Part shown: in pieces, positions 1,734 through 63,134 of the stretch | Numbering within the stretch: position 1 is the stretch's first letter | Layout: every line of letters starts with the position of its first letter | Assembly (NCBI GenBank): GCA_947034885.2 | Contig: OX344749.2 | Location: 43,119,682 to 43,183,681, forward strand | Direction: 5' to 3' | Source of the DNA: Thuidium tamariscinum | Taxonomy: Eukaryota; Streptophyta; Bryopsida; Hypnales; Thuidiaceae | DNA: 64,000 nt | Position numbers and translations under genes: made by a program | The notes under the pieces: generated by a model | Told to the model about the DNA's origin: nothing | The model's database searches: none | Seen by the model: the letters and a program-made list of their open reading frames with translations, nothing else

Positions 1734-2670
1734 TTAACTCCTAAAGGTTTTTGACTTTGTTTTCACCAAAAATCCTTCAAAATTGTCATTTCTAGGACAA
1801 CTACCAAATTTCAAGAACAAAATATTTTTAGACAAATATAATTGTAGGATCTCTTAGTACACTAGTTTGAAAAGATAAGGAAAAAATTTCAGAAATTTCC
1901 ACCATGTAGATTGTAAGATATTAGTGTTTGAAGTGACAAAAATCATTTTTTAGCCACTGCAAAAATTTGGGCAATCGCATTTTAGAAGGCCACATTTTTA
2001 TGAAAAAATGTCCACAATGGTTGTAACTCTTTGGATTCATTCTTCAAGCCAAATTGGCTACATGCTTTAAAATTTTCAAATCATTTGGAATTGTAAAACA
2101 TGTAGGAAAAAAATAGTAAGTAGAAAAAAGTAGGAAGTGATTCAAAATACTAAATTGTTAACAATTTATTTACAAATTAAAAAAATCCAATCCCAATGGT
2201 TGTAATGTTATATTAAACAATATACACTCAATGTTTTTATTTTTCAAAAATACTAGAATTTGAATTAAATAAAGGACTTTCAAGTTTATTTTAGGGTAGA
2301 TAGTCTATAAGTTCCCACAAACTACCCACAAACTAAAATTTTCATAACTTTCAACTCATTAATCAAAATGAAATGATTCAAAGTTTTCCACATATATAAA
2401 CAACCGATTTCAAATTATTATTTTAAAAAAAGTGATTTTTGAAGAATATTTTTGGCCACATGGATTGCCCATCGAGCAATGAAAATTACATATCATACAA
2501 TAACTTTTAAACCATGTAGTCCAAAGTTATGAAAATGGTTGGGCCTTAAAGCTACACCCTGAAAAAATGTTGTGTGAAAAATTCAAAGAAAAAAATCAAA
2601 ACTCCATTTATAGGTACTTGCCAAAACCATTGTATTGCCAAAAAATGCACTTTGGTCCTTTAGGCATTAA
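1734..2670 (+). mobile_element. TTAA-flanked non-autonomous DNA element, copy A
   Basis: The left end reads TTAACTCCTAAAGG and the right end CCTTTAGGCATTAA, a slightly decayed form of the family ends CCCCTAAA..TTTAGGGG next to TTAA. The interior matches copies E, F and I: a CATTTCTAGGACAACTACCA word, then TTCCACCATGTAGATTG, then GTTGTAACTCTTTGGATTCA, then a GGCTACATGCTT block, and near the right end AAAATGGTTGGGCCTTAAAG. No open frame of useful size is present, so this is a non-autonomous element. A TTAA target duplication points to the piggyBac or Sola3 type; that assignment is an inference from ends only. Confidence 0.7.
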
Positions 2671-28079: not shown

Positions 28080-28112
28080 TATTTCTATTTCTATTTCTAC
28101 TTGCGTTTCTGA

Positions 28113-28251: not shown

Positions 28252-28362
28252 GTAGATTGTATTGAAGAGGCGATAATTAGTGGTTTGGAATTGTAGTATT
28301 ATATTTGAATTATTTTTTCTGAACTCTTATAGCTCTTTATGTCCTTTTGATTTTTCGCTTCC

Positions 28363-28441
28363 CGATGATGAATTGCAGATTCTTAGTCGGATTCCCTCCG
28401 ATGCTAGTGGCAAGTGACGCTAATCTGCTCTTCTGATGGTT
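28363..28441 (+). ncRNA. Candidate box C/D snoRNA
   Basis: Box C ATGATGA (28365-28371) and box D CTGA (28433-28436) lie 61 bases apart, a normal spacing for C/D snoRNAs, and the unit sits between two U14 copies in the same orientation. The closing stem is very short and no convincing C'/D' pair is seen. The guide before box D (ACGCTAATCTGCTCTT) was not matched to a target from memory. Two boxes alone occur often by chance, so position in the cluster carries most of the weight. Confidence 0.35.
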
Positions 28442-28508
28442 TTTGATAGAATTTGCGATGTCATTTTTTCCCGAACTTCTCTTCTGATCGTTAGTCAATT
28501 GAAGTCCA

Positions 28509-28642
28509 TGCCAGAGTCAGTGATGATAAACTTCTAGGCTTGTTTCTCAAACATTCGCAGTGGCCGCCTAAAGCTTTCGCCTTGCCGGGCTTGAGAGCTA
28601 ATGCAGCTTCCAAACCTTCCTTGGATATCTGAGACTCTGGCA
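28509..28642 (+). ncRNA. SNORD14: U14 box C/D snoRNA, copy 3
   Basis: The best preserved of the three U14 units. A perfect 10-bp terminal stem pairs TGCCAGAGTC (28509-28518) with GACTCTGGCA (28633-28642). Box C is GTGATGA (28520-28526) and box D is CTGA (28629-28632). Domain A (CATTCGCAGTGG) and domain B (CCTTCCTTGGATAT) match the conserved U14 18S-pairing segments. It is nearly identical to copy 2 between the boxes, which suggests a recent duplication with a step of about 395 bp. Transcription as part of one precursor with the upstream units is inferred from order and strand. Confidence 0.88.
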
Positions 28643-29823
28643 CTCGTAAACTTTTTGGTGTATTTGTTCGTCTACAGCGATGATTAAAATACACCCGCGC
28701 TTCTGAGGGGCAACCCACTGAAGTCAAAGGGATATAATGGTTGAATTTCTTTAGATGAGCTGTGAATGTTGAATATATTCATTTTTTTTCATGAGTCGCT
28801 AGTGTCTAAAGCGGAGTTTCAAGCTTGTGATGATTCCATGGTTACTTCTCCTGAAATTTCAAGTGCTGCAGTTGAATGTCCTGTCAGGCGTGCTCTTGAA
28901 AGTATGAAGAACCCGAGCTCACATGGAAACATGTGAGCTTTACTGACTCTATCTAACTGCTGTTTTCGATCAATCACCAACCTTGCTTAGCATAGCGATT
29001 GCATATCAGCTTGTCAATCGTTACCACAAAAGTGAACGAGTCGAAGAGAGGAAATTAAAGACATTGAGGGAGCTTAAAACGAATCTACAGATATCAGTCC
29101 ACTGAACTGCGTTATACTACAATGGGAGAATTTGGAGCGACACCCAGGAGAGGATGAGACCTTAGTATTTGGTAGCTCTTCACCACGAAAAAACTTGGGT
29201 GGCCCGTACCAGACAATTCCGGAAGAGGTTTGATGTTATCCAGTTTTTGTGGAAATCATATCCTTGTTGCATCTGTAACAAAGGGGTTTCTGTTCGCTCT
29301 CTAGTACCGGTATTCGTAGTCTTCAAACGTGTAATTTCATGCATAGTGATTCTAGTATGTAGATTGTTAGACTAGTTGGTTCCCTTTTCATAGAGATTGG
29401 CTAATTTGTGTTAGAGATTGAACTGCCAGTTTGAACAGGATTTACATTAAAGTTCAATCTATTTTATGTAACAAGCTCATGCTATCAATTTCACATGGTT
29501 ACCAAACTATGATAAGCACAAATGGAAAAAAAATCGAATGCAAATTCATAGGAAACTTGATGTATTCGTACGGCACCAAACTCTATTGTTCACTAATCTA
29601 GCCCTAAGCCTATCACTAAACAATTGATAATCCTGTATTTTTTGGTATTTCTTAGTTTTCTGTATTCCTCAGGTATGTCAATGCATAGTTCAATAGATCT
29701 GTTTTTTTAATTGCTTTTGGGAGGAGCATGTGCCATATTACTAGTTCCTTAGAGGATGAATTTGTGCTGAAGGGCTAAGTTGAAGGAGGAAATGAATATC
29801 TTTTTAACCCCTAAATCTGTTGT
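28643..29823. other. Downstream part of the snoRNA region and spacer
   Basis: The first part keeps the balanced composition of the cluster. A box-C-like GTGATGA at about 28827 is followed by CTGA, but the stem is poor, so it is not called. At 28916-28941 a hairpin AGCTCACATG-GAAA-CATGTGAGCT has a 10-bp perfect stem and a GNRA tetraloop, suggesting that this stretch is transcribed as structured RNA or ends a transcript. From about 29400 the DNA returns to AT-rich spacer with no gene. Confidence 0.4.
28917..28940 (+). other. 10-bp hairpin with GAAA tetraloop after the snoRNA cluster
   Basis: AGCTCACATG pairs perfectly with CATGTGAGCT across a GAAA loop. Stable GNRA-capped hairpins are typical of structured RNA and rare in random AT-rich DNA. 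It lies about 275 bp after the last U14, so it could belong to another small RNA or to the 3' end of the snoRNA precursor. Function is not known. Confidence 0.5.
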
Positions 29824-31440
29824 TTGCAAAACTTTAATGTTAAATTACACCCAAGAACTAGGTACCTATTTTCAGTAGTTTATATTCTTGAAAGCTTATT
29901 TTTGTGGGTTTGCAATGACCTTAAACTACCCCGGGTGATAGGACAGGTGGTAGGGACATCCGGTGGGATCCTTGAGGTCCCCGATTCAACTCCCCATGCT
30001 AACATTGCTTGCATGGGGGCTCTTCGTGCCGGTGCACGAGGAGAAGGTTGGTGTTCCGTCACTTGTTCTCGACGGGGATGCCCAAGGTGGGTAATTCCTT
30101 GGTTATCATACCGGGTTGCCTTGGATGTTGTGTCGTGTCAGTCTCGCTACGACCCTTGAAGGTCGTATGTTTCAAAAAAAAAAAGCTTATTTTTGAATTT
30201 TAGTTTTAGCATCAGAAATCTGATTTGGACTTACATATTCAAGATTTTTGGCAAGGGTGTCCATTGCAACCTTGACTTTTTTTTTAGTTGAGGGTTCTTG
30301 GAATTGAGCCTTTAATACAGTAGATTTTCAAGAAAAAACTACATTAGAGTTTCTTCTAAAAAATTGTAAAGTAGATTTAAAGCTCTAAATTGATTGTAGT
30401 TAGACATGTGAGACCTAGTAACCACATATTTTTGGGGTGGGGAACTTTGTGAATTTGACTTTGTGAAAAGAGGATCAAAAGACTTCAAGTCATTAACATA
30501 GTTTGAACATGTTTATGATCAAACATTATAATCTTCCAATGTAGAAAAGATATTGTTGTGTTTTCTTTTCCTAAGCAATCACTTGTCTTTTGATTTTGTA
30601 CAATTACATTATAAACAAAATTAGTGAAGTATATCAAAATGTGAGCTTTTTGTTTAATTTAGATCAAATTTCTAAAAACCAACCAAATATGTTGGGTAAT
30701 TAGTGGTTAGACTAGTAATTATATGTTGTAGATTTTTCATTGAAGTATAGTGAATGAACCACTAAATGTCGAAGGTACCAAAATTTGGTGTTTGCAAAAC
30801 TTTGAAGTTAAATGAAACCTAGCAAAGTTGCTTTTTTTAGTAGTTTATATTTTTGAACAGTTATTCTTTAATTCTAGTTTCAATGTCAAAATTTTGATTT
30901 GGAAAATGAATCATAGTGATTTTTGTATTCAAGATTTTGAGCAAGGGTACCTATTGCAATCTTGACTTTTTGTAGTGTTGAGAGCTCTTGAAAATGAGCT
31001 TGAAATACATTGGATCTTACAGAAAAAATCACATTCAAAATTCATTTACAAAAATTGTAGAATAGGATTTGAGAAGCTTTAAATTGATTAGAATCATGTA
31101 TGTTAGGTTCTTTAATCTAATATTTTTCTGCTCACCAACTTTTTTGATTTGACTTGTAAAAAGAAGACAAAAAGACTTCACATCACTTTTGTAAGTTTTA
31201 ACACCCTCGATGGTTTATATTATAATCTTTCAATCCATAAGTGATATTGTTGTGTTTTCTTTTCTTGTACAATCTCTAACATATCTAGTTTGAATTCATA
31301 CGGTTGCAATTCAAAAAAAATTGATAAAACTTATCAAAATGGTGGCATTCTGTTCAATTTAGACCAAATTCCAAGAAACTCAAAACAAGCCTTGGGCATT
31401 TAGGGATTAAAGTTTCAAATCAATAAGTCCTACTATTAGT
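29824..31440 (+). repeat. Two-copy ~0.65-kb tandem repeat, first copy split by a SINE
   Basis: The stretch 29824-30710 (without the SINE) and 30787-31440 are diverged direct copies. Both start at TTTGCAAAACTTT, then TAGTTTATATT, GCAAGGGT.. ATTGCAA, TTGACTTTTT, a run ending in GAGCTTG or GAGCCTTTAATAC, and later an AAGACTTCA and a TGTTGTGTTTTCTTTTC word. No coding frame is conserved between the copies, so this is a duplicated repeat, not duplicated genes. Confidence 0.7.
29905..30181 (+). mobile_element. tRNA-derived SINE with 14-bp target duplication
   Basis: A 277-bp insert is flanked by perfect direct repeats AAAGCTTATTTTTG (29891-29904 and 30182-30195). It has a box-A-like TAGGACAGGTGGTAGGG, a box-B-like GATTCAACTCC about 40 bases later, and a 3' A run. 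These are the internal RNA polymerase III promoter parts and tail of a tRNA-derived SINE, mobilised by LINE machinery. The tandem copy near 30841 preserves the site without the insert. The intact target repeats suggest a relatively young insertion. Confidence 0.85.
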
Positions 31441-31979: not shown

Positions 31980-32950
31980 TCTTTGGACTCTCTAGTAAAC
32001 CTTTCAAGAATTCAAGAATTTGAGAATTTTATTGGTTGAAATATTACTAACCATAAGATAACCATAATGGTCAAATTTTTTTTAGAATAGCCATTTCTAA
32101 ATTTAGGAATGTAAAAAGTCACTTATTCTTGGACTCATTCTCAAGACAATAAAGTTAACTATAAAGTGGTGTATTTAGATAAAGAAGGAGAGTAATTTAG
32201 AACATGGGTGGTTTAAAGGTAAAGAATTAAAAGAAAACATCAAATAGAAAATTCTAGCCAATGAGGTCAAGGCATGTATTTCTTTAGCTCTTCATGGTCT
32301 ATATCCAGCAACAATCACTAGAATGTACATCTTGCACTTGAATTTGAGCCATTTTTTAAGAAAAATTCCTTTTATACATTTTTTTTTCCTATTCTTTGAC
32401 TTCATTTATTTGATCTTGTATTTTGGCTCTAAATATGTGTAGCAAATCTTTCATTTTTCTCTTCTTTTTCTTTAAATTTGACAATAAAACAATCACTATT
32501 GCTAGACAATTTTATCACTCATTTTTTATCCTAAAAATACAAGACTTGTTTCTATGCATGTAGAACTTAGTTACCTTGAGAATGAATAGAGGATGCCAAC
32601 TTTCTAAAATGTAATGTGTTCAAAAGAGCTACTTACAACACAATTTTAGTGACTCCAAAATATTAATTTTCTTGAAGTAATCTTCATGTTTATGTCATAA
32701 CAATTTTAGTGACACCAAAACATGGATTTCCTTGAAGTAATATTCATATTTATATTATGATCTTGCAATTTATGAATTGGATTGAAACCAAACTTTGTAG
32801 ATATAATAGGGACTTGACTTTCTACAAGATTATGTGGTTAATTGTGCCTAAAAATGATTCATTGCCCTTTGAACATCAACTCTTTGTAACTTACAAAATT
32901 GGGATACAAAACACCTTGACAATTGCTAGAAATTTTAAGGGTTAAAATTT
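31980..32950 (+). repeat. Dispersed repeat R3, forward copy
   Basis: An approximately 0.9-kb AT-rich repeat whose reverse complement lies at about 51190-52030. Shared words, read in the forward sense: ATTCTTGGACTCATTCTCAAG, TTGTATTTTGG, CATGTAGAACTTAGTTACCTT, CAACTTTCTAAAATGT, TTTTAGTGAC..CAAAAC and AATTGGATTGAAACCAAA. This copy contains a doubled ~60-bp unit (32637-32696 and 32697-32756) not doubled in the other copy. No protein domain and no terminal repeats were recognised. Confidence 0.6.
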
Positions 32951-34483: not shown

Positions 34484-35415
34484 TTAACCCCTAAAGGACC
34501 ACGGCCGTTTTTCAACCCAAAACCACTCAAAACTGCCATTTTTGCTCCATTCATCCATGAAAAACAAAAAAACTAAATTTTTAGAATCTAACCATAGGAT
34601 CTTGTACTTTACTTAACTAAGATCATGTGGTGAAAATTTCATGAAGTTTGATCGTATAGATAGGAAGATATGAGCATTCAAAGTTGGAAAACAAAGTTTT
34701 CTTAAACTCTAGTTTGCAACTTCAAATGACTTTGTCCTCCATTTATGTAATTTTTTTGCACTACAGACCTTGAATTTAAATTTTTTTTCTATTGATAAAT
34801 TGAGCTAAGAGCTTAGAAATAAAAATTCACAAAATAAAGACTTTTTTTTCATTCTTTAAAAAATTGTCAAGTAGATGTAGGTCCAAGATTGAAAGAAAAA
34901 CTAAATTGCAAATATCTCATAGATGGAAATGAAACACAATAATCCCAACGGTGAGATTGTTCTAGCAAACAAAATCAACCTTGTCCAACAATTTTTTTTG
35001 AAAAATTGTGAAAATTGCATTCACAAATGAATCCTATAAGTTATTTTTTCAAGAAGATGCTTAGATTGCCCGAAAAACAAGATTGTTCATAACTTTCACA
35101 TTACTAATCCAAATGGAATGAATCAAAGCTTTACTTGTAGAAAAAAATAAAATCTATAAGAAAAAAAAATTAATTTTTTAATTTTGAAGTTTTTGTAGAT
35201 TTTTTTTTCTGCCTGGCAACATGAAAATTATGTTTAAGATGGCATAACTTTTGCTCCCGGTCACCAATTGAAAAATTAATAATATTCCCACAAAGCTAAT
35301 CAATTTTTCTATCTTATGTGAAAATTTTAAGAAAATTCATTAAAAATTGAAGTCACAAGTACCTGCCCGAATTCTTAAAGTCCCCCGAGGGGACTCTTGG
35401 TCCTTTAGGGGTTAA
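34484..35415 (+). mobile_element. TTAA-flanked non-autonomous DNA element, copy B
   Basis: TTAA at both edges (34484-34487, 35412-35415). The inner ends are perfect inverted repeats over at least 14 bases: CCCCTAAAGGACCA at the left and TGGTCCTTTAGGGG at the right. The flanks beyond TTAA differ (ATC left, TGC right), as expected if TTAA is the whole duplicated target. The interior keeps family words such as AAAACCACTCAAAACTGCCAT and CATAACTTTTGCTC but is AT-rich and non-coding. Best structural match: piggyBac or Sola3 type, by ends only. Confidence 0.75.
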
Positions 35416-35658
35416 TGCATTTCTATGGTGACCAGAAATACATGTATATATAAAAAAATTTCACCTTGTGAAGTTTTTTTGGTAGTTACTTTAAAATAGA
35501 TATTAGTTTTTAGCAACCTTCATTCATATGTGTATTTTTCAACTTGGGTAGTTTATTGAACTATTTTGAATTGAAACCTAGAATTTGGAGTTAATTGTTT
35601 ATAAGAATGTTCTTTAAATAAAATAATTTTCTTTTCTTTTCAATAGAAAAAGAGTAAC

Positions 35659-38158: not shown

Positions 38159-38365
38159 GGCAACTTTAGGCAGTTCACTACAAATGGAGTTTTTAAATCT
38201 TTTTCTTCAAAGTTTTCACACAACATTTCTCTATGGAGCACCTTTAGTGCCCAACAATTTCATAACTTTTAACTACATAGTTGAAAAGTTATTGTATGAT
38301 ATATGTAGTTCTAATTAGTCTCCGGGCAGTTTTAGTAGAAAAAATATTCTTTAAAAGTAATATAC

Positions 38366-39211
38366 TTAACCCCTAAGCGCTCAAACGACCATTTTCTGGT
38401 CGCTGCCTAACTTCGGGCAGAATTTTCGAGCAAAAAAAAAACTTTTTTCAAAATTTTTTTTTTTTCGGTTTTGAAAAAATTGGGTTTTCTTTGAACATTG
38501 ATATTCAAAACTAAGATCAGTACGGTCAAAAAAAAGTTATAGCAAAAAAAAGGAGAAATAGTACAAAGTGTCTAAAATTGCTTAGTGTTGAAAAACTTAC
38601 TATTTGGGGGAAGTACTGATGCTCTCATTATTAAATACTTTTTATTTTTTACAAGTCAATAAAAACCACAATTTTGACCAATCAAAAAAAAATTCAAATC
38701 ATAAAAATAGAAATTGTATTTTTGGTGAATTTTTGAAGTTATATCTTCAAAATTCATTTGAAGAGAATCTATAAATATTTTTAAAATTTTGATCGTATGT
38801 ATACTTTCTACTTTTTGTGCTTTACATTATCTTCTTTGATGCTAACTTCAAAAAAGTTGTAAAGCTTATATTTTATAACACATTTGTATTTTGTCTTAAT
38901 CCCTTGGGCTTTTAGAGGTTGAATATTTTGCATTTTTCTATAAATCAATAAAAAACACAATTTTGACCAATCAAAAAGAATTTCAAATCTTAAAAATAGA
39001 AATTGTATTTTTGGTGAATTTTTGAAGTTATATCTTCAAAATTCATTTAAAAATAATCTAAAAACATTTTTTTTACTTTGACTGTATGGATACTTTCTAT
39101 TTTTTGTGCTTTACATTATCTTCTTTGATACTAACTTCAAAAAAGTTGTAATGCTTATATTTTATAACACATTTGTATTTTGTCCTAACCCCTTGGGCTT
39201 TTAGGGGTTAA
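38366..39211 (+). mobile_element. TTAA-flanked element, copy C, with duplicated right half
   Basis: TTAA at both edges with CCCCTAAGCGC at the left and GGGCTTTTAGGGG at the right. About 265 bp of the interior occur twice in tandem (about 38655-38920 and 38945-39207). Each copy ends in a family-like right end: an inner CCTTGGGCTTTTAGAGGTTG and the true outer CTTGGGCTTTTAGGGGTTAA. The inner one shows that a right end was copied inside the element. Non-coding; divergence between the halves is low. Confidence 0.72.
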
Positions 39212-39239
39212 GAAATAAAAACTCAAAATTGTTCACTTT

Positions 39240-39850
39240 AGATTTATATTTTAGTGGAAATCTTTGAATCATTCTATTTTGATCAATGAATCAAAAATTA
39301 TGAGGGATTCTAGTTTAAAATAGTTTGTACATAGTAATATAATTTATATTCTACCCAAAAGTTTGAAATAATTTATTCAATTTAATTTTTAATATTTTTG
39401 GAAAAAAAATTAGGTGTAGGTTGTTTATTACAACATAATAGAAATCGGGATTGAAAATTTTCAATTCCATAAAATAATTGTTAATAATTTTGTATTTTAG
39501 ATCATACTCTACTTCTTTCAATTCATTATTTTTTTCCTATATGTTGTACAATTCCAAATGATATCAAATTTTTAAGCATGTAGCTAACTTGATTTGAAGG
39601 ATGAATCCAAAGGGTAACCACAATTTTTAATATTTTTTATAGAAATGTGACCATTTGAAGTGTAGCTGCCCATTTTTTCACAAGGTTAAAAAAAATTATT
39701 TGTCAATTCAAACGCTCATATCTTGCTATCTATGAGATAGAAATTTCTAAAAGAATTCTACATCTTTTCAAACCAATTTACTAGAATATGATATTGCTAC
39801 ATGTGTCCAAAAATGTTTTTCTTAACACTTGGAATTTATACTAGAAATTG
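39240..39850 (-). mobile_element. Truncated reverse copy of the TTAA-flanked family, copy D
   Basis: On the reverse strand this stretch follows the interior of copies A, E and I: a CATAATTTTTGATTCATTGA word, ACAACATATAGGAAAAAA, GTTACCCTTTGGATTCATCC, AGTTAGCTACATGCTT, and a CACATTTCTATAAAAA block. It abuts copy C and lacks recognisable TTAA ends. It is a fragment only. Confidence 0.55.
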
Positions 39851-41700
39851 CAATTTCAAAGCATTTTTAGTGAAGACATAGTCAAAAACTTGCAGGGATT
39901 GTATTAACTTTTGGTCACATCAATCTAAACTATCTAGATTCACCTCAAGATAATATAACATTTCCAAAAGTTCATCTAAGCAAGTATAATTACTCATGTA
40001 CATTCAATTAAACTAGAAGATGGCAAATTTCATTAAAGTGACAAAATTTCAATTCTTTGACACTTCTTACAATTCACACCGTACAATCTAAAATCAAAAT
40101 TTGTCATAGATTTTTAGACTGTATATTTTTTCTAGATGTTTGAAAATCAATATGAGTCCTATATGTCAATTTTCAATTCAAACCATGTGTTCAGATAAAT
40201 GGCATATAGAATACCATCATTTAAATAAAATTTGTCATAAAGATCCTGTGTACCCAAATTCATTAGGTTTAAGGCATGATAGAAGGTAAAAAATTGGGCT
40301 TAGGAAAAAAAATCACTGAAATGATTTAAGAACAAAGAATTTGGCAGCATTGGCTAAGAAAAATTCTTTGACCTTCATATTTGACGTACAACATGAAACT
40401 CAATTAATACTAATTTAGAGTTATGGAATGTATCTCCTGCACTATAAAATACATTCTTTTCTTAGAGGTGAAACAAAAACATAATTTGAAAACTAATGAT
40501 GAATTCAAAATATACCTATAATTTTTTATTTTCTTCTCATTTATTAGTGTTGCAATTATTCCATCCAAAATTTTCAAAATAAGTTCTATTTCTTGCCAAA
40601 AAGTATAATAAGATTGTTTATTAATGTGATATTTATTTTGTCTAGAATTTTCAAAATAAATTTCAATGCTCACAAAAAAGAATAACCAAAATATAAGTGT
40701 TCTTCAGTATATTATTTTATAGTCGTAGATTATAAATATCAATATAGATAGTGAATATAGATCAAGTATGTTATTACCAAGAAGATATTGATTGCATCTT
40801 CTTGGTACATAGTAGGAAGGTATTGTGGACATACAAAAGAGACATTTTACTTTCAAAAATGAACAAGATGTTGAAGAAGATCCTCTACTCTAGTGTCAAT
40901 AGCCTATACCCCTTTACTATAGATATTCAATCTTTCACATGCACCACAGATGGTGAATCTTCTTCTCCATCTTCATTTATTGTTTGAAAATTCAACTTCT
41001 TTGATAATCACAAGATCTTTTGTTTCATGCTCGCTTCTTGTTTTAAAAGAAGGGGGGATGTTGGTGATTGATATGTCATAATTTTCTCTCAAAATTGCAA
41101 ACAAACCTTTATAATCTACTACTCTATCTAACAAAACATTCAATGGCAAGAGCTAGTGTTTTGCCCTCACGTGCTTCAACATTTATATTAAGGACAATGA
41201 CACAAGGCTTGCAGACATTGTTTAGTCCAACTAACTTCTCATTCATCCATTGCAATATTTGAATCTTGAAAAGACAGCCTTTTGTAATGACCAATTTCAT
41301 GAAATTGCAATAAATGATATTTTGTAAATGCTATTTATTCTAAAATGTAAACAAAGGTATACAAAAAGTTGAGGCATCAAGCGTTTAACCTTTAAACATC
41401 AACAACGACATTTTATGGCTAACAAATGACAATGAATCTTTCCTTGTAGGACAAAAGTGCATCTATTCATCCCTGGTATTAAGGGTGGAAAGGAGAGATC
41501 TTCTCCAATACTTTGACTTCCAGTGAGTATAATTGGCTTATTCAAAGTAAATGATGTCACAAGGTATCACAATGCATGATTTGTTTTTTTTAATTTCAAA
41601 ACGAACCAAATCCGACTCACAAAAGAAGGAATAGAAAACCATTCTCACACACATGCCACGATTCCAGTGAGAACTAATAAGCATCAGGAGTTGGGAGGAT
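39851..41700. other. AT-rich spacer with short unassigned frames
   Basis: No gene is supported. Frames at about 40410-40673 (-), 40751-40987 (+) and 41068-41262 (+) are short and resemble no family I recognise. An inverted pair ACCAAGAAGATATTGATTGC / GCATCTTCTTGGT at 40778-40808 forms a small hairpin. The stretch may contain remains of an unidentified repeat. Confidence 0.4.
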
Positions 41701-49154: not shown

Positions 49155-49601
49155 CACTACAAGAAAAACCAGTGTTTTAAGTATAATCTTAAATATAAGA
49201 TTTTAAATAATGACGTTTTTAGGAGATTTTGAGTAAAAATCACTACAAGAGAAAGGGGTGTTTTAAGTATAGTCCTAGAGATAACATTTTAAGTAATGAC
49301 TTTTTTTGGAGACTTTAAGTAAGAAATAAGTGTCTTTTTAGTAAAATTTTACTAAAGAGACACTTATTTCTTACTTAAAGTCTTCAAAAAAAGTCATTAC
49401 TTAAAATGTTATGTCTAGGACTATACTTAAAACATCCCTTTTTCTTGTAGTGAATATACTATAAATACATGTTTTTTTAATAAAGATTTTAAATAATGAC
49501 CTTTTTAGGAGAATTTGAGTAAGAATTTATTAGAAATATATGCCTTTCTAGTAAATATTATCTTTAGGGCTATACTTAAAACACCCCTTTCTCTTGTAGT
49601 A
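49155..49601. mobile_element. CACTA-like MITE (outer, interrupted)
   Basis: The left tip CACTACAAGAAAAACC and the right tip CTCTTGTAGTA are inverted CACTA-type ends; the last base differs from the expected G. GGG flanks both sides (49152-49154, 49602-49604), a 3-bp duplication as CACTA elements make. It is interrupted by the inner MITE at 49241-49452. Subterminal sequence (GTGTTTTAAGTATA) is shared with the inner element, so both belong to one family. A block AGATTTTAAATAATGACSTTTTTAGGAG repeats directly on both sides of the insertion. No transposase. Confidence 0.8.
49241..49452. mobile_element. CACTA-like MITE (inner, nested insertion)
   Basis: A 212-bp near-perfect fold-back: it begins CACTACAAGAGAAAGGGG and ends CCCTTTTTCTTGTAGTG. 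The arms pair almost throughout around the centre AGTAAAATTTTACT. It is flanked by AAT on both sides (49238-49240, 49453-49455), the 3-bp duplication of the CACTA superfamily. It lies inside a relative of the same family, so it is the younger of the two. Confidence 0.9.
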
Positions 49602-49609
49602 GGGACACT

Positions 49610-51189
49610 TGCCTTTCTTTTGGTTTGTATGAAATTATAAAATGCAACATCGTTTTCCCATAGTATTTTGATGATCACATATTTGAATATTATAGGTATT
49701 TGAGCTCTTGGTTAAAATCTTTATCAAGTTTAAAATGTTTGTAACATGCATTGGGTTTGCAACCTAAAGTACTTGCAATTTTTTTTAAGGTTGTATATTC
49801 CAATATGTTCAAGCAGCTAAAATTATTTACAAAACTCCAATACATTGGGCCTCCTAATTATCTCATTGACTATGTGTAATCAATATGGTGTAATGAAATA
49901 TAGACCTTATTAAACCTTTAGGGATTAATTTCTTTTTAAAAATAGGTCTTATTTTTGAGACCTCAACAATAATTTTATAAAATAATGGTACAAAAATTGT
50001 AAATTGTTTTAATTTTTTTCAATTTTTTAAAATGACAACCAAATATGAATTAAAATGTTTGAATTGTATTCAATTTTCAATATGGGGGGCATCTAATTAA
50101 AAGCAAGCATTTTACTCGCAGGCACATGGTGCCCAAAATTACTTCTATGAGTACACTTTTTTAATATGGAGTACACTAAGAAAGTGACTATGATAGTACC
50201 TTATTCTATAGTTTGCTTGTAATTTATTGATAAAAAAATTGATGTACTGATTGTTTGGGGGTAAAGCTTGGTTCTTATTAAAGAAGGCACACATACCTTA
50301 GTTACATTTAATTTATCTTACATAATTTTTCACATGAAAAAATTGTAATCTTTCTTTCAATATAACATTTACCTTCTTAAATTCCAAAGATAGATATATT
50401 GATTCACAAATATAATTGTTGTGGCTACAATTTTACAAAATCATTTTTTAAGTATATTTATTCTATTTTAAAATTATTACATATATATCCTCTTTTCTTA
50501 AAATAGTGTGTTATGTAATAAATTTTTGTCTAGTTTCTAAAATTTCATTATAATTCTTTGATGTCAACCTTTCAAGAGTTTGAAATTGCAAGTTTAATAA
50601 AGAGCATGTATTTCCACATATTGATCGTGAATCCTTATAACTTGTAGACTTAGAAAATTTTGAATTTCTAATGTACATGTGATTCAATAATTTGGCACAA
50701 ATTAATGAAAAACTCAATGTTAAACAAAAACTCCTTTGATTGATCACTATAATCTCTTAAATCTCTTTTATTTACAAATTAACACATTTTGGGGTTTATG
50801 TTCGTTAAGGAAACCTCAAAATCCTTTTGTCTTAGAATTCTGATTTAAGGCCTCAAAAATGAATATAATTTGATAATTACAAGCTATATTTCTGACAAAA
50901 AGTAACAAATTTTTTTTAAGTTAATGCTACAATTTTTCATTTATTTTTCTTATTTGGGGGCATTTCTATCAATGTTGTATTATTTTGCTTTTGCAAATAC
51001 TTTTATTGTCAATTTATTTTTTTAGCCAATTATTTTAATATTTTTTAAATTATAGAAAAATTGTCTTGAAAATAGAATTTTACAAGTGATACATTTAGGC
51101 TTCAAATTTATATTTTACCACTAAATGTTCAATTATCTACTAAATGAATGATGGATATTTTGAAAAAATATATATATTCAATTATTATT
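49610..51189. other. AT-rich spacer, no gene seen
   Basis: No supported frame, RNA gene or transposon border. GAGTACACTTTTTTAATATG and GGAGTACACTAAG near 50150-50180 are a short direct repeat. Confidence 0.45.
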
Positions 51190-52030
51190 AACTCTTAAAA
51201 TTTCCAGCGACTTTCAAGTTGTTTTGGATTGTAATTTTGTAAGTTACAAAGAGTTGAAGCTCAAAGCACAAAAAGTCATTTTTAGGCAAAATTAACTATA
51301 GGATCTTGTAGAAAGATTAGTTTTCATATTATCTCTACAAATTTTGGTTTCAATCCAACTTATAAATTATAATATTGTAACATAAAAGTGAAGATCACTT
51401 CAAGAAAATCTATGTTTTGATGTAACTAAAATTGTGCTTTGATGGGCTCTTATGAACACATAACATTTTAGAAAGTTGACATTTTATACTCATTCTTAAG
51501 GTAACTAAGTTCTACATGTATAAAAACAATTTTGTATTTTTAGGACCAAAAATGAGTGAAAAATTGGTCTTGCAATAGTGACCACTTCATTGTTAAATTT
51601 TGAAATTTTGAAATGAGTGGAATTGATTTGTCACAAATTTAAAGCCAAAATTCAAGATTGGATTTAATAGAATGAAAGAATACACAAAAAGACACATAAT
51701 AGGGGAAAAAAATTTGAAAAATGGCTCAAATCCAAATGCATGATGTGTATTTTAGTGGTTGCTAGATATACACCAAAAAGAGGTAAAAACAACAACAAAT
51801 GCCTCTACTTCATTGGCTAGAATTCCTTATCCAATGACTCTTTGATTCTTTATCTTTAGGCCACCCATGCTTTAATAATTTCTTAAAATTCTTCTTTTGA
51901 ATTTGAATACATTACTTTGTAACTAAATTTATTTTCTTGAGAATGAGCTCAAGAATAAGTAACTTTTTACAGCCCTAAGTTTGGAAATGATTGTTCTAAA
52001 AATGATCAACTATATTATAGTCAATCAAAA
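51190..52030 (-). repeat. Dispersed repeat R3, reverse copy
   Basis: Reverse-orientation relative of 31980-32950: here TTTGGTTTCAATCCAACTTA, ACATTTTAGAAAGTTG, AAGGTAACTAAGTTCTACAT, TTTTTAGGACCAAAAATGAG and CTTGAGAATGAGCTCAAGAA appear in the opposite order. It has a single version of the 60-bp unit that is doubled in the forward copy. It ends just before the CACTA element at 52075. Confidence 0.6.
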
Positions 52031-52074
52031 TTTTAAGGATTAATTAAGAATATTTGGGGATACTCTTGTATTAT

Positions 52075-53993
52075 CACTACTAGAAAATCAGTGTCCAAAT
52101 CAACAAAAAATTAGCAAAAAAGTGTTGATTTGGTCTAACACTTCTATGTTGATTTAGTGCAGTTGACTTGGACAGTATGTAGCAAAAACTTGTTGAATTT
52201 TTTGTTAAATTTTTTGTTGATTTGGTCATGTTGTAAAATAATTTGAAAAAAATTTAAATTTAAAGAACCAATCAACATTTGACACGTGGCAATCCATGTG
52301 GCACCAAAATGACACATGTCATCTATACAAGTCCCACACCTAGGTCAATGTCCACATGGCGGTCAACATTGACCACCACCTCAATGGGGAGTTGGCATGG
52401 GGGTTTGAACCCCCCACCTCACGGTTGGGAGGGAAGGGTTCAAGCCACTAAGCCACCTCCAAGTACTCATGAACACTCTTGAAATTATTTAGTACATAAA
52501 TCTTTTTAAACCCGCCAATGTTCAATTTTTGTAAGTTCAGCTGACTTCAGAGCTCATTTAGGCATAGTAAATCAATTTTCTTATAAACATTTTGAACTAA
52601 TGAAAGTTGGAGGTTGAAGTTAAGTTTCACCTCCAAAAATCCGTTTGTCATTTGGAGCTTTTAATAGAAAGTTATGGCCAAAATTCAGAGACAGTGTTAA
52701 AAAATGTCAATTTTTTTTTCAAAACACTGTCTCTGAATTTTGGCCATAACTTTCTATTAAAAGCTCCAAATGACAAACGGATTTTTGGAGGTGAAACTTA
52801 ACTTCAACCTCCAAATTTCATTAGTTCAAAATGTTTATAAAAAAGTTTATTTACTATTCCTAAATGAGCTCTGAAGTCAGCTGAACTTACAAAATCCGAG
52901 TTGTGAATGGTTAATTCAATTAAAACTTTTCATTTTATAAAAAACTCAAACCATATTGATTTAAACATATCTCTAATTTAAGAAAAATTCTAATTTGAAA
53001 ACTCTAATTACTCAGAATTAACCAAATTTTTTTTTTTTTTCTTAAATTGGACATTGTTTTCTCAAGTCCACAAAAACATCCTATTAGGTTATAGAAAAAT
53101 GAACTACGAAGAAGTCAAAGTGAAGTTTTAAATCAATAAGTTTTGTAAAATGTAAGATTATAGAAACTTTGTTTAATTAAACACATTTTGACATAGTAAT
53201 AATAAAATCTTCCTTAAATATACAAAGTATAGTACAATTGTTTAGAAATATTGGACAAATTAGTTATTCCTTAAATTTAAATATTTTGAAATCGGTGTCT
53301 CTAAATTTTAGTAAACTTTGGAGGCGATTTCAACATAGTAAAACATATTTTTTGGTAAAAAGAAATTTTATAAAAATTTGAGAAATTAAATTAAATTAAA
53401 TCTCTTAAAACCCGTTTGTAATTTTGAAATTTCAATAAAAATTCATGGACAAAATTCATAGTGGTAGCAAGGAACAATTTTTTTGAGATTTTCAAACACT
53501 CCCTCTGAATTTTGTTCATAACTTTTTATTGAAGACATAAAATCATAAAAGAATTTTTGGAGGTGAAAGTTTGTTTGATTTTACAACTTTTCTTAGTAAG
53601 AAGTTTTTCCAAAAAAGATATTTTACCATGCTTAAATTGCCTCCAAAGTCTGCTGAATTAACAAAACATTGAATTGTGAGGGATTAGTTTTATTTAAAAA
53701 GTTCATGATACAAAGATTTCAAACTATGATTACTTAATTATTGCCTAAATAAATAAAAATTTACTTAAGAAAAATTTAAGTCAATTGCAACAAACATTTG
53801 TTAATTTTTCTGTTGATTTGAACACCATACTATCCAAATCAACAATTTCTTTTGTTGATTTGGACACTAATTTGTTGATTTGGATAATACAGTGTCCAAA
53901 TCAACATAAATTTGTAAAAACGGTCGATACAGTACCCAATTCAACAAAAACTTGTTGTTTTTTTGTTGACCTGGACATCATTTTCTACTAGTG
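52075..53993. mobile_element. 1.9-kb non-autonomous CACTA element
   Basis: It starts CACTACTAGAAAATCAGTGT and ends CATTTTCTACTAGTG, inverted CACTA-type tips. The 3-bp duplication TAT is perfect (52072-52074, 53994-53996). Motifs of the form TGTTGATTTGGAC, in both orientations, are packed about ten times into the first ~170 and last ~220 bases, like the subterminal transposase-binding arrays of En/Spm elements. The interior has no transposase. It contains a long hairpin (52531-52890), a degenerate second version of it (about 53410-53670), and a tract with GGTTTGAACCCCCCACCTC that resembles a repeated plant intergenic motif. Confidence 0.88.
52531..52890. repeat. 168-bp-arm hairpin inside the CACTA element
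   Basis: The arms 52531-52698 and 52723-52890 are inverted with only a handful of mismatches, around a 24-base loop. The tips read GTAAGTTCAGCTGACTTCAG and CTGAAGTCAGCTGAACTTAC. The innermost ~80 bases of each arm pair almost perfectly. An RNA read through it would fold into one long duplex, a good small-RNA precursor. Whether it is transcribed is unknown. Confidence 0.93.
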
Positions 53994-54236: not shown

Positions 54237-54925
54237 TTAACCCCTAAAGGTTTTTGACTAATCTATGTTTTCACCAAAACCACTCCAATTGTTATTTCTA
54301 GGACAACTACCAAATTTTTGTAAAAAACATTTTTGAAATAATGTAATCGTATGATCTTTTAGTGCACTAGTTTGAAAACATGTAAAAAACATTTAAAAAA
54401 TTTCCACCATGTAGATTGCAAGATATTAGTCTTTGAAGTTACAAAAATCCTTTTTTTACCACTATGGAAATTTGGACAGCTGTACTTCAAAAGGTCACAT
54501 TTCTATGAATTTTTTTCAAAATGGTTGTTACTCTTTGGATTAATTCTTCAATTCAAGCTGGCTACATGCTTGAAAATTTTCAAATCATTTGGAATTGTAC
54601 AACATGTACGAAAAAAATAGTAAGTAGGAAGAAGTAGAGGATGATTCAAAATACTAAGTTGTTAACAACTTACTTATTGAATTGAAAAATGCCAGTCTCA
54701 ATGGTTGTAATATTGTAATAAACAATCTACACCGATTTTTTGATTTTTTTTCAAAAATATTAAAAATTGAATTAAATAAAGGACTTCAAAGTTTATTTAA
54801 GACTAGACATTCTATAACTTCCTATAAACTATCTACAAACTAAATCTCCTCATAACTTTCATCTCATTAATCCAAATGACATAAGTCAAAGCTTCCAAAT
54901 ATTGATTTTCAATATTTGGAACCAA
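54237..54925 (+). mobile_element. TTAA-flanked family, copy E (left part)
   Basis: The left end TTAACCCCTAAAGGTTTTTG is intact. The interior follows copy A closely (CATTTCTAGGACAACTACCA, TTCCACCATGTAGATTGCAA, GGCTACATGCTTGAAAATTT). It stops near TCAAAGCTTCCAAAT, about two thirds through the family sequence. The matching right part begins at about 58383 (copy G), so E and G may be the two sides of one element split by later events. Confidence 0.65.
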
Positions 54926-55169
54926 TCATCACTTCAAAATACTCAAAAAGAAGGTTTGCAATATGTATAATGTCTTACAATGATGTCTAAATGCACTTTA
55001 AGCATAGCCACCCTCACTTGACAAACTTTGTATGCTCAAATTTTCCATCAATTTGAAGGGCCTTCAATTTCCTCATCCCTCATCTTTCTTTACCAAATAT
55101 GACCCATAAATACTCAAGTGACTACTCATGAAGTAGAATAACTTCTCAAGTTTCTTGACTATATTTCAA

Positions 55170-55855
55170 AAAAAGGGTCCAAAATTGTCATTTCTAGTTT
55201 CTATACCAAACATTAAATTTTTTTTTTGAGATTTGTAACCTTAGGATCTTGTAGTAAATTGGTTTGAAAACATCTAGTAAAAATTTCAAAGTTTTCCACT
55301 GTATACATTGCAAGATATTAGTGTTTGAATGTTCAAGAATCATTCTTTCACCTTGCACAAAACATGATAGTTGCTCTTTAGTAAGTGAAAATTGTATGCA
55401 AAATGGTTCAAAACACTTGTGCTTATTTGAATTCATTTTCATTGTTGAAGCCAAGTAGGGTACTTGCCTAAAAATTTTCAAATCATTTGATATTATACAA
55501 CATATAGGTAAAAAATAGTGAGTAAAAAGAAGTAGCAAATGATTCAAAATACAAAATTGTTAAGAATTTCTTTATAGAATTGGAAAATGCCATTCCTAAT
55601 GGTTGAAATGATGTAATAAACAATTTACATCCTATGATTTTATTTTTTTTGAAAAATATTGAACTTTGAGTAAAATAAAAGACTTCAAAGTTTATTTTAG
55701 AGTAGAGAATTGATAACTACCCACAAATAAAAAAACCTCATAACTTTTGATTCATTAATCAAAATAAATGATTCAAAGCTTTCCATGCATACATAAATGA
55801 AGAAAATTAATTTCAAAATTTTCAAACTTAGTGGAACACTTAGTGGTTTCAAAGA
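55170..55855 (+). mobile_element. TTAA-flanked family, copy F (interior only)
   Basis: Family interior in the same order as copies A and E: CCAAAATTGTCATTTCTAG, AACCTTAGGATCTTGTAGTA, GTTTTCCACTGTATACATTG, GTACTTGCCTAAAAATTTTC and CATAACTTTTGATTCATTAA. Both TTAA ends are absent. More diverged than copy E, so older or under a different history. Confidence 0.55.
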
Positions 55856-56054
55856 CCATTCTAAACTTGAATCTCAAGAGAATATTGTAGAAAGCCCATA
55901 ACACTTCTCATCCACATATGAAGAGCATCACACTGCTAAATAATGCGTATGGGTGGCCTGGCTCTTAGTATCTCCACCAATCCTACGTATTAAGCCTTTG
56001 GCTTCAGTCAAGCTCTTTCACTGTGGTGTTTTTTTTCTGGCAAAATTTTGCTAC

Positions 56055-56435
56055 AATGGAAACATTCAAAACCATCAAAATAAGGAATTCAACATAGTTG
56101 GAGGCAATATTTTCTAAAAATGATATTTTTCTAATATTAGCGAGTGAAAATCATGAATATTAAAAAAATATAGATTTTTTGGCTACAGTATGTAATTTCT
56201 ACAAATTTTCAAAGTGTTGGCTCCCTAGACCTGTGAAACCATCCTGTAGGTGCCCCCCAAACTGAACCCTGCGAAAATCAGCATTCAGCCAATTAGATTT
56301 TCCTATGTGTCCTTCAATTGTGTCAGCAAATTACAATCACATGTGGCGAACACATTAAGGGAACTCTACTGATTCATTTATGTGGATCTACTGTCTACTG
56401 CAAGGAACAGACACGGGAATGGATGTTTTGCCCTT
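56055..56435 (+). repeat. Dispersed repeat R4, copy 1
   Basis: About 380 bp that recur in the same orientation at 61319-61706 with high similarity: AAACATTCAAAACCATC, GGAATTCA.CATAGTTGGAGG, AGTGTTGGCTCCCTAGACCT, CCTGTAGGTGCCCCC and a GGAATGG.TGTTTTGCCCTTA tail. In the second copy it is the interior of a 608-bp element with inverted ends, so this is probably the same element with a lost left end; the right end may be the palindrome near 56960. Confidence 0.75.
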
Positions 56436-56958
56436 AATCTGTCCAAATTATGATCTCTGCTGGTTCATCCCTCCAAAATCTAGCCTATGCAGTGAGGCCA
56501 ACAAGGGGACACTGGTCCAAAACAGAAGCCCTCCCTCACATCTTCCAAGACTTCCTCTCCCTCCATCCTAAAGTCTCCTAAAAGTAAATTCCCTTGAGAC
56601 ACTGCGAGTTTTTTTCTCTTGGGTTGTGTGTCAGTTGTTGACTATCTTTACCTCGTGGATAGTTGGATAGTATTGTAGCCTTGTGGAGACTTCTAACATG
56701 GTTGAATAATGTTACGAAACAGGACACATGATCAACGGCTCCGTAGTAAAACAGTGGATGGTACCCTTTCAATGGAATTCGACCATTTGTTTCAAAAAAT
56801 TATTTATTATTTTTTTATTATTATTTTTGAAACAAATGGACAATTTCCATTGTTAAAGGAAACAGTACATAACATTCAGGAGCACTCTGCACGACTGCCT
56901 TCCTAAGGACAGAATCGTGTGGAATATCCCACATCATTCCATCCAAAAGGATGAAATG

Positions 56959-56980
56959 GTGTGGAATATTCCACACCAAA
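56959..56980. repeat. Short perfect palindrome GTGTGGAATATTCCACAC
   Basis: An 18-base perfect palindrome related to the terminal word GGTGTRGAATATTCYAC of the element at 61247-61854. It may be the fused or surviving end of the copy at 56055. Confidence 0.7.
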
Positions 56981-57314
56981 TCAGTAACTTTTATTCAGTA
57001 GCAAGGCAAAGAAGCAACGCGTCAGAGTTTCAGCTTGGAATTTGTGGATGACTCTGCCTGCTTGGAAAAGGCAGAGTCTCTTCTTGCTACTGAATGTTAT
57101 ATACATTGAATCAAGGGCGACCCCGGCGAAGCAATTTTTCTTTAAAATAAATAAAATTTTAAAACAAACAATGGACAATATATGTTTTTTGAAAAAAGCA
57201 TCCATTCTTCTTCTTCGTCTTCTTCCGCGCCGTACTGAAACTTAGAGAAAAACCGGCATGTGCTGATTTGTGTGTGAGAGGAGCATGATTCCAAAGCCTG
57301 GGCATGATAAGTTA

Positions 57315-58210
57315 GACCATCCCCACTGCGGCTCAGAATTTGGCTTAAACTGGGTATTTGGCCGGGTCAGCCAACTATCTGTACCCCATCCCACGCAAAA
57401 TCAAACTCAAAATATGGCCGGGCGTGGCCAAATTTACTGGGCAGACGGGAAAATACTAAGTTTTACCCACGGGCCGGAAGGGAGTTTGACTGCACTTTTG
57501 ACCCCCAAATCGAGGTACAGACCCTGCTGACCTCCCAATTTCAATTTTTTTTTTCCAAAATGAAATGCTTAAAAGCAATTTCATGTACAAAAATGAGACA
57601 ATGCTTATCTCAAAAAAAGATGAGTTCGTAGTCTCTTTTATCCCACATGGATTGGAAATCCTCCTTCCACCCCAAGAGGATGTAGGGAGTTCCACTTCTC
57701 ATGGCAACTCATGCCTCCCTACATTCACTATGAAGTGTATGTAGGAAGAACTGAGCTTGCAATGGAGCAAGGCTCCTTATATCCCCATGGGGTGGAGGGA
57801 GGGGCTCCAACCCATGTGGGATATATGAATTGCAAGTTGTTGGAACTCAAAATTCAAATTTTGAGTTCCAACAACTTGCAATTCATATATCCCACATGGG
57901 TTGGAGCCCCTCCCTCCACCCCATGGGGATATAAGGAGCCTTGCTCCATTGCAAACTCGAAATATTTTGAGATATCTTCAAGGAAAAAGAATGAGACCTT
58001 GAAGGAAAAAACAGCCCAATGTTTTTGGGTTTTAATTCAAGGCAAAACAAACTGAAAAATTGATTAAAAAAAATAAAAACATCTTTTAGAGAGTTGCTTG
58101 CACTGTTTAGCAGTGGGGCTCTCCAACTCTGGCCGGGATGGATTGTAATCATCTGCCCTACAAAGGGTCAGATTTTGAGTCAAATTCTGACCCGCGCGGT
58201 GGGGATGCTC
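57315..58210. mobile_element. Tourist/PIF-Harbinger-like element, 0.9 kb
   Basis: The left tip GACCATCCCCACTGCGG and right tip CGCGGTGGGGATGCTC are inverted with few mismatches, and TTA flanks both sides (57312-57314, 58211-58213). A 3-bp TTA duplication with G-rich inverted tips is the pattern of Tourist/PIF-Harbinger MITEs. It is larger than its relatives because it holds a long palindrome (57757-57954) and flanking repeats. No transposase. Confidence 0.75.
57757..57954. repeat. Perfect 98-bp-arm palindrome with a 2-base spacer
   Basis: Bases 57757-57854 and 57857-57954 are exact reverse complements over 98 positions, separated only by CA. After one mismatch the pairing resumes for three more bases on each side. 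Perfect pairing over this length means recent formation or active correction. Short frames crossing the palindrome are only its translation. Upstream, about 57620-57740 contains a decayed relative (CCACATGGATTGGAAATCC and CATGGCAACTCATGCC). Confidence 0.97.
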
Positions 58211-58382
58211 TTAGCCGGTGCAGCAGATTCTTACTCACCGGTACAACAGGAGAGAGATGTGATGCGCATGGCCTTTTACAAAATGTGTTTTTAAAGCTTC
58301 ACAACTGAAGAGATGTTTTATCAACAACCATCTGTTGTCTCTTGTTGTTGCCGTCGTTGTCATGGTCGTCATCTTGGGATTC

Positions 58383-58747
58383 CATACCTACCCACAAACT
58401 AAAATTCCTCATAACTTTTGACTCCTTAATCCAAATGGAATGATTTAAAGCTTCCCATGGCTGTATAAACCTAAAGAATCAATTTGAAATTTCACTTTTC
58501 AAAAAGAAGTTTTTTTAAAGAAGTTTTTCCAGTTGCCCGGCTTGCCTGCTGAGTAAAGAAAACAACATATCATACCATAACTTTTTAACCACAAAGTCAA
58601 AAGTTATGAAAATTGTTGGGCCTTAAAGCTACTCTTCAGGCACATCTTGTGTAAAAATTTCAAAGACAAAAAAAAAACTCCATTTCTAATGAGTTACCCA
58701 AAAAACTTATGTTGCCAAAAAACGTAGCTTAGGGCTTTAGGGGTTAA
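58383..58747 (+). mobile_element. TTAA-flanked family, copy G (right part)
   Basis: It begins at family position ACCCACAAACTAAAATTCC, continues through TCATAACTTTTGACTCCTTA, CATACCATAACTTTTTAACC and AATTGTTGGGCCTTAAAGCT, and ends with an intact GGGCTTTAGGGGTTAA. No left end is adjacent. It overlaps the last ~100 family positions of copy E, so the pair is not a simple cut. Confidence 0.65.
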
Positions 58748-59389: not shown

Positions 59390-59660
59390 AAACAATGTGT
59401 GCATAGAAATGTTGTACAAATTCAAAGGATCTAAAAATTTTCAAGCGTATAGCCAACTTGCTTTGAAGAATGAACCCAATGAAGCACCACCCACTTGGAC
59501 ATTTTTTTTGTACAAATGTGACCTTGTAAAATGTAGCTACCTTGTTTCTTGCAAGGCCTAAAAAAGGAAATTATGGCCTCCAAGTTGACATTTTTTGTCA
59601 GTTCATGTCTCTACGTTGAAAATTTCTAAAAAAAATATTTTTTTTAGTGAAAACACAGTC
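59390..59660 (-). mobile_element. TTAA-flanked family, copy H (reverse fragment)
   Basis: On the reverse strand it shows AAATTTCTACAAAT-like and GGTTCATTCTTCAAAGCAAG, TTGGCTATACGCTTGAAAAT and TTTTTAGATCCTTTGAATTT, matching the centre of copies A and I. No TTAA ends remain. Confidence 0.45.
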
Positions 59661-61246: not shown

Positions 61247-61854
61247 ATAGATGGTGTAGAATATTCTACCCTCCAATAGCCTTCCTTTCTGCCAACTCCC
61301 TTTCCTTCACGCACACTATAGTGGAAACACCCAAAACCATCCAAATAAGGAATTCAGCATAGTTGGAGGCAGATTTTTCTAATAATGATATTTTTGTAGT
61401 ATTAACGAGTGAAAATCATGAATATTAAAAAAAAATAGATTTTTCGGACACAGTATGTAATTTCTATAAATTTTCAAAGTGTTGGCTCCCTAGACCTGCG
61501 GAACCGTCCTGTAGGTGCCCCCAAATCTGAACCCTGCAAAAATCAGCACTAAGCCAACCAGATTTTCTTATGTGTCAGTCAATCGTGTCAGCAAATTACA
61601 ATCACACATGTGGCAAACACATTAACTACACTCTATGGACATATTTGAGTTAATCTATGGTCCACTGGAAGGAACAGGTGCAGGAATGGGTGTTTTGCCC
61701 TTACTCATCATAACTGAACTTACTAAGCCTCCACCCACCATTGCCTCCACCTATCCACTTAGCTACTCCTAAGCACATTGGACCTCCATCTGTCCACTTA
61801 GTTGGTGGCGGATGAAGCACTGTTGCATGTGGAATATTTCACACCGTCTACTAT
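61247..61854. mobile_element. 608-bp MITE containing repeat R4, copy 2
   Basis: The left end ATAGATGGTGTAGAATATTC and the right end GGAATATTTCACACCGTCTA followed by CTAT are inverted with a few mismatches. The interior 61319-61706 is the second copy of R4. Non-coding. The target duplication is unclear because the tips are AT-rich, so the superfamily is not assigned. Confidence 0.6.
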
Positions 61855-62188: not shown

Positions 62189-63134
62189 TTAACCCCTAAA
62201 CCCCTGAACAACGTTTTCACCAAAAAAAATGCTCCAAAACTGCCATTTCTAATACAAGAGCAATTTTTTTTTAAAACACATTTTTGACTCATGTAACCAT
62301 AGGGTATTGTAGTAAGGTGGTTAGTAAACATGTGGAAAAAATTTCAGAAATTTCCACCATGTAGATTGCAAGATATAAGCATTTGAATTGACAAAAATTG
62401 TTTTTTTATCCCTGCGAAAATCCGTGCAACTGCACTTCGCAAGGTCACATTTGTGTGAAAAAAAATTCAAAATGGTGGTTACTCTTTGAATTCATACTTC
62501 AATGCAAGTTGGCTACAATCTCAAAAAATTTCAAACCATTTGGAATTGTACAACATATAGGAAAAAAGAAGTAAGTAGAAAGAAGTAACAAATGAGCCAA
62601 AATACTAAATTGTGAACATTTTATTCATGGAATTGAAAATTTTCAATCCCAATGGTTAAAATGTTGAAATAAACAATCTACACCTTTTGTTTTTATTTTT
62701 TTCCAAAAATATGAAAATTTGAATTAAATGAAGAATTTCAAACTTTTTTTGTATTGTAGAGATTATGTAACTGGCCACAAACTACCCCAAACTCAAAATC
62801 TTCATAACTTTTGACTCATTGATCGGATTGATTCAAAGCTTCACATGTCTGTATAATCCTAAAGAATCAATTTGAAATTTCACTTTTCAAAAAAAAAATT
62901 TGAAAAAGTTTTTTCAGCTGCCCGGTCTGCCCGCCGAGCAAACAAAGTGACATATCATGCCATAACTTTTTATTCACAAAGTCAAAAGTTATGAAAATTG
63001 TTGGGCCTTAAAGCTACTCCTTGGACACACATTGTATCAAAATTTCAAAGAAAAAAAATAAAAACGCCATCCGTAGTGAGCTGCCCAAAAAATCTATAAT
63101 CTCAAAAAATGTTGTTTAGGGGTTTAGGGGTTAA
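62189..63134 (+). mobile_element. TTAA-flanked non-autonomous DNA element, copy I (best preserved)
   Basis: TTAA at both edges (62189-62192, 63131-63134) with flanks GCAC and GAAG outside. The inverted ends extend about 29 bases with two or three mismatches: CCCCTAAACCCCTGAACAAC against GTTGTTTAGGGGTTTAGGGG. The ends contain two units close to the plant telomere repeat CCCTAAA. The interior runs co-linear with copies A, E, F and G across the full length. The longest frame is under 70 codons, so no transposase is encoded. Type inferred as piggyBac-like or Sola3-like from the TTAA target. Confidence 0.82.

Follow-up and report, generated by a model that had tools for sequence, protein, structure and literature searches.

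We found that the 64-kb window, that is, the whole stretch of DNA analysed, holds a dense, old and diverse set of elements with profile or tip support at ten places, and that these are probably old non-autonomous, TTAA-specific cut-and-paste DNA transposons of the piggyBac superfamily. Their tips, TTAA flanks, nesting and duplication boundaries were seen directly in the DNA. Five two-ended copies carry the main tip (at 1734, 29804, 34484, 38366 and 62189), and one tentative copy carries a second tip (51188). All six places named in the original prediction were present in the window, with two ends at 1734, 34484, 38366 and 62189, a left end at 54237 and a right end at 58747; the two-ended copy at 29804-31410 is a further one. 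The features are as follows.

1734..2670, plus strand: copy A, two-ended, 937 bp including both TTAAs, decayed tips
29804..31410, plus strand: B29, two-ended tandem dimer with outer tips CCCCTAAAT and TCCCTAAAT
29905..30182, plus strand: SINE-like insert inside B29, with an A-rich tail and a 13-base direct repeat
32079..32945, minus strand: T32, a relative of T51, with the tip TTAA followed by CCCTTAAAATTTC at 32945
34484..35415, plus strand: I34, two-ended, 932 bp, best terminal inverted repeat (CCCCTAAAGGACCA at both ends)
38165..39900, minus strand: host copy of the A/G62 family, split by N38, profile positions 3-704 and 693-902
38366..39211, plus strand: N38, two-ended, 846 bp, sitting in the minus-strand copy 39900-38165
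38631..39211, plus strand: tandem duplication in N38, units marked by TTAA 38631, TTGA 38919 and TTAA 39208, each closing with the right tip
49918..49928, minus strand: possible lone right end, TTAGGGATTAA, no partner found in the window
51188..52043, plus strand: T51, tentative second-tip copy (CTCTTAAAATTT and TCCTTAAAATTT), right end uncertain
54237..54961, plus strand: L54, left end and left three quarters, profile positions 2-718
55139..55819, plus strand: M55, left part of another copy, decayed tip, profile positions 3-691
58379..58747, plus strand: R58, right end, profile positions 569-945
59408..59632, minus strand: internal fragment, profile positions 152-368
62189..63134, plus strand: G62, two-ended, 946 bp, tips CCCCTAAACCCCTGAA and CCCCTAAACCCCTAAA
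62298..62314, plus strand: left subterminal box, CATAGGATCTTGTAGTA with 2 mismatches, 109 bases from the left TTAA

The tip motif TTAACCCCTAA had 9 exact matches on both strands of the window against 0.02 expected, and at least nine matches occurred in 0 of 100 dinucleotide shuffles (shuffle mean 0.02). When two mismatches were allowed, 48 matches were observed against 25 expected, so most of the loose matches are due to chance; two of them, at 31400 and 2660, turned out to be the partners of the ends at 29804 and 1734. Tips of the predicted CCCCTAA type were present, but those of the 1734 copy (CTCCTAAA on the left and TGCCTAAA on the right, as reverse complement) are decayed and not among the nine exact matches. 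We also scored all TTAA pairs 200-5000 bases apart for terminal inverted repeats, with seven control tetramers for comparison. The results showed that I34 (score 31) and G62 (score 29) were at the top, while the best score per control tetramer was 11 to 20. N38 scored 18, inside the control range, and is therefore identified by its exact 11-base tips; A and B29 were not among the best 25 TTAA pairs listed, because their tips are decayed. The pairs 2796-3035 and 49263-49579 (scores 25 and 20) were set aside as longer inverted repeats running through TTAA, which belong to another class of element, and the pair 34484-39211 was set aside as uniting the ends of two different copies. Tip bases 3-7 (CCTAA) were identical in 12 of 12 main-type ends, a constancy that is partly built in because these ends were picked by tip similarity, and C stood at base 1 in 10 of the 12 and likewise at base 2. 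The right ends yielded CCCCTAAAgGCCCAAG, and the left ends agreed only over about the first ten bases. The inverted repeat of I34 comprised 14 identical bases followed by one match in two, that of G62 matched at 15 of the first 16 bases, and those of N38, A and B29 matched at far fewer.

In all six two-ended copies (A, B29, I34, N38, T51 and G62), no direct repeat of 2-12 bases other than TTAA flanks the element, as predicted, although this comparison is partly circular because a search for TTAA tips had brought up the copies at 29804 and 51188, and T51 is tentative. Flanks were compared by self-BLAST (E up to 1e-6). The results showed that alignments begin or end at TTAA for the pairs 1734/54237, 58747/63134 and 2670/63134, and that the alignment 2672/58749 extends 2 bases further. 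The predicted lack of relation between flanks was borne out for these pairs, but the 38366 copy sits inside a relative. When the host site of N38 was rejoined, its alignment with A became continuous again, and the interruption lay at about profile position 700. With 0, 1 or 2 TTAAs kept at the rejoined site, the scores hardly differed (105/109/109 with A, 55/55/51 with G62 and 69/73/77 with R58), and the site agrees with a short duplication. In the internal duplication of N38, one TTAA (38631) is seen at the unoccupied junction, and a single TTGA/TTAA follows the right tip at the occupied one; this arrangement disfavours TTAA being a part of the element that is missing from empty sites.

The right 288/289 bp of N38 are repeated in tandem with 90.0% identity over 291 positions in self-BLAST. 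The first unit starts at the TTAA at 38631, the second starts at the TTGA at 38919 after a full right tip (TTAGAGG) and ends at the TTAA at 39208, and identity is down to 27% and 23% in the 30 bases beyond these boundaries. As for the order of events, an element may have inserted into its like at the internal TTAA 38631 and may then have been mobilised with the inner left and the outer right end, which would leave TTAA-bounded tandem right ends. Alternatively, and with somewhat less than an even chance, the duplication could have arisen without self-insertion, by microhomology-mediated or slippage tandem duplication between two TTAAs. The 4 bases of TTAA at both breakpoints would suffice for this, and an excerpt of PMC2872659 invokes replication slippage for tandem TTAA MITEs of corals; against it, the right breakpoint is a transposon end, where the transposase cuts, and there are just 7 TTAAs within the 846-bp element. 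The sequence alone may be read as either self-insertion or slippage and does not decide between them.

B29 is a second tandem structure. Its units (about 29804-30710 and 30755-31410) align lengthwise, and its inner ends are decayed to TTAGTGG followed by TTAG, and TGAA followed by CCACTAA. The SINE-like insert in it comprises about 280 bases, and the direct repeat AAGCTTATTTTTG at 29892 and 30183 (region 29892-30195) is taken as its target duplication.

We ran a profile over the window for which A, G62 and the copy hosting N38 served as training sequences. Nine stretches were above the inclusion threshold (E 2.3e-289 to 3.4e-32), four of which are the three training copies: 62190-63133, 1735-2669, 39900-39207 with 38376-38165, 54238-54961, 55140-55819, 58379-58746, 34485-35414 and 59632-59408. 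N38, B29 and T51 were missed by the profile and are tied to the group through their tips. Interior similarities, scored against 30 mononucleotide shuffles per pair (a mild control for DNA this rich in AT), were weak between A and T51 (z 8.4) and between G62 and B29 (z 5.4); N38 was similar only to B29 (z 6.2), and no similarity was detectable between its interior and the A/G62 group, I34, its fragments or T51 (z 1.0 to 2.3). Since N38, B29 and T51 are linked mainly through tips, the set is several families sharing one tip kind rather than one 0.9-kb family. Of the earlier proposal of a non-autonomous 0.9-kb family, the non-coding TTAA group stands, but not the single family; sizes run from about 0.85 to 1.6 kb. 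Pairs within the A/G62 group were mostly 71-82% identical in self-BLAST, and these copies are therefore old. L54, M55 and R58 share one orientation within 4.5 kb; L54 and M55 are 72% alike, below the 81% between L54 and A, so they are not a recent duplication. A reading of 54237-58747 as a single 4.5-kb element was set aside, because on the profile its left part (2-718) overlaps its right part (569-945), and another left part is found between the two.

The left ends also share an internal box. With at most 3 mismatches, CATAGGATCTTGTAGTA had 5 matches in the window against 0.09 expected, and four of the five lie in left ends. Three of these, at 34593, 51297 and 62298, stand exactly 109 bases in from their left TTAA; for the one at 55240, in M55, the distance is about 102 bases, and the fifth match, at 37894 on the minus strand, lies outside left ends. 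Eight copies, among them T51 and T32, can be aligned in line over their left 230 bases, and the box may be a transposase site or may reflect mere ancestry. The right end of T51 is uncertain, because its BLAST alignment with T32 ends at 52002, 41 bases short of that end, while a looser alignment (51156-52083) passes both TTAAs.

Searches against Pfam, in which the piggyBac transposase is named DDE_Tnp_1_7, found no transposase family in 8 chosen ORFs or in 122 of the 258 stop-to-stop ORFs that reach 60 aa; gene-like stretches were excluded from this set, and a decayed transposase whose ORFs are short could have escaped detection. The sole matches were both weak (DUF6636, E 0.018, and VWC2L_1st, E 0.007). 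The elements are non-coding, which fits the prediction of a transposase supplied from elsewhere. A conserved interior stretch of 23 to 25 bases had 0 matches in each of the viral and genome contig collections, which hold no plant genomes and are silent on plants, and scanning 101 bases of the left flank for promoters and terminators gave nothing of use.

We infer a transposase encoded elsewhere, most likely of the piggyBac class, that would bind the CCCCTAAA tips and subterminal sequence. By analogy with the system described in part of PMC7351741, in which excision proceeds through TTAA hairpins and integration occurs at unpaired TTAA, the elements would be excised through TTAA hairpins and pasted at TTAA, so that TTAA is duplicated, and copies would also insert into one another. 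According to excerpts of PMC2872659, piggyBac elements have TTAA duplications and 12-19 bp inverted repeats beginning CC[C/T]T, and an animal survey, as excerpted, gives mostly CCC tips (PMC10813416). The elements here resemble piggyBac and its MITEs in TTAA duplication, C-rich tips, short inverted repeats (about 14-16 bp, in I34 and G62), non-coding small members and nesting. They differ in having C instead of T as the fourth tip base, in their plant host and in that a transposase was not among the window ORFs scanned, and at 0.85-1.6 kb they are longer than usual MITEs. The coral CMITEs, in the same portion of PMC2872659, are likewise TTAA MITEs with variable inner tips, tandem arrays and mutual insertion, but their tips retain CC[C/T]T, their interior is conserved, and the autonomous piggyBac element that partners them has been isolated. 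The first three bases of that motif fit the intact main-type tips (CCCCT) and the fourth does not: it is C in main-type ends where intact, and CCCTT is found only in the T32 tip.

The main rival, which we consider unlikely, is that the elements are non-autonomous Sola3 elements whose TTAA duplications come from a Sola3 DDD transposase. Sola3 makes TTAA duplications, and in this the elements here resemble it. Excerpts of PMC10741241 give Sola elements 4-bp duplications and very variable tips and place them in the moss Physcomitrella, and a table in the portion of PMC6890710 at hand lists 2739 Sola against 1230 PiggyBac copies for the fern Ceratopteris. The C-rich tip is nevertheless a hallmark of piggyBac, which we continue to prefer.

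A land-plant TTAA transposase lineage distinct from the described piggyBac clades, recognising CCCCTAAA tips and a left box 109 bases inside, whose passengers would evolve by insertion into their own TTAAs and exit with mixed ends, is a speculative and rather improbable extension. That the lineage would lie outside piggyBac, Sola3 and Kolobok altogether appears very unlikely. It would suit the CCCCT in place of CC[C/T]T, the left box, whose distance stays at 109 bases across three diverged copies, and the lack of a coding copy seen in the window; piggyBac accounts for everything seen, and no new enzyme is required.

Tc1/mariner-type elements with a TA duplication, tips ACCCC..GGGGT and a preference for TTAA are highly improbable: the palindrome makes T-TA-A CCCC...GGGG T-TA-A suit TA and TTAA readings alike, but the full TTAA stands at every undecayed end examined, where a TA-targeting enzyme should give other flanks. 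Kolobok elements are scarcely credible, since they share TTAA-specific 4-bp duplications but, as excerpted from PMC9587614, have purine-first termini (5'-RR...YY-3' against 5'-CC...GG-3' here, with C or T first at 12 of 12 main-type ends) and are named in that excerpt, among plants in the wide sense, only for chlorophytes and rhodophytes. The superfamilies originally considered, piggyBac and Sola3, thus left out one TTAA-specific candidate that the tips themselves disfavour.

The resemblance of the tips to telomere repeats looks like coincidence. The motif TTTAGGGG at the tips is one G off the plant telomere repeat TTTAGGG, and the telomere-like look had been proposed as a trait of the family, with two units per end in one copy. 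Two CCCCTAAA-like units at each end are indeed present in G62 (CCCCTAAA as the second unit on the right, CCCCTGAA on the left), but in no other copy, and no TTTAGGG array was among the 21 tandem-repeat rows of the window. The second unit of G62 matches a variable GCCCAAG-type block of the other right ends, which read GGACCAAG or GGACCAAA (I34 and A), AGCCCAAG (N38), TGCCCAAG (B29) and GCCCTAAG (R58) at this place; because they differ there, the telomere look of G62 is one variant of that block. A telomeric origin of the tips was rejected, given the lack of an array among those rows and the variable second unit.

The piggyBac group is better known from animals, in which TTAA-specific transposons serve as workhorse tools; for seedless plants, few have been described in the literature examined. 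A search that left most subscription papers outside yielded no publication describing such tips on TTAA elements of bryophytes, ferns or lycophytes. The presumed rarity of such elements in land plants is only partly right: an excerpt of PMC10004981 counts PiggyBac among seven MITE superfamilies reported in angiosperms, and with the fern table of PMC6890710, also seen as an excerpt, this means that the kind is already known in plants. That one window holds so dense, old and diverse a set suggests that such a TTAA system has long been part of this plant lineage. The exact tips provide a handle for finding the transposase, and a live autonomous copy would raise the importance of these elements.

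We took the window as plant nuclear DNA because of a cluster of four C/D snoRNA matches at 27993-28762 that reach Rfam gathering scores, namely SNORD14 twice, snoU36a and snoZ223, the last of which we take to be a plant snoRNA family; a tRNA scan of the window found none. A 428-aa open frame on the minus strand (21681-22964) looks like a host gene, with no Pfam match at 0.1 and one chance PDB hit (E 0.73). Near the TTAA elements, but unrelated to their tips, there is a dispersed repeat pair, 56051-56439 and 61316-61706, which is 85% identical over 391 bases. In addition, self-BLAST revealed long, near-perfect self-complementary stretches at 57753-57958, 52527-52894 and 49240-49453 (98%, 94% and 95%), which may be foldback elements or sources of hairpin RNA.
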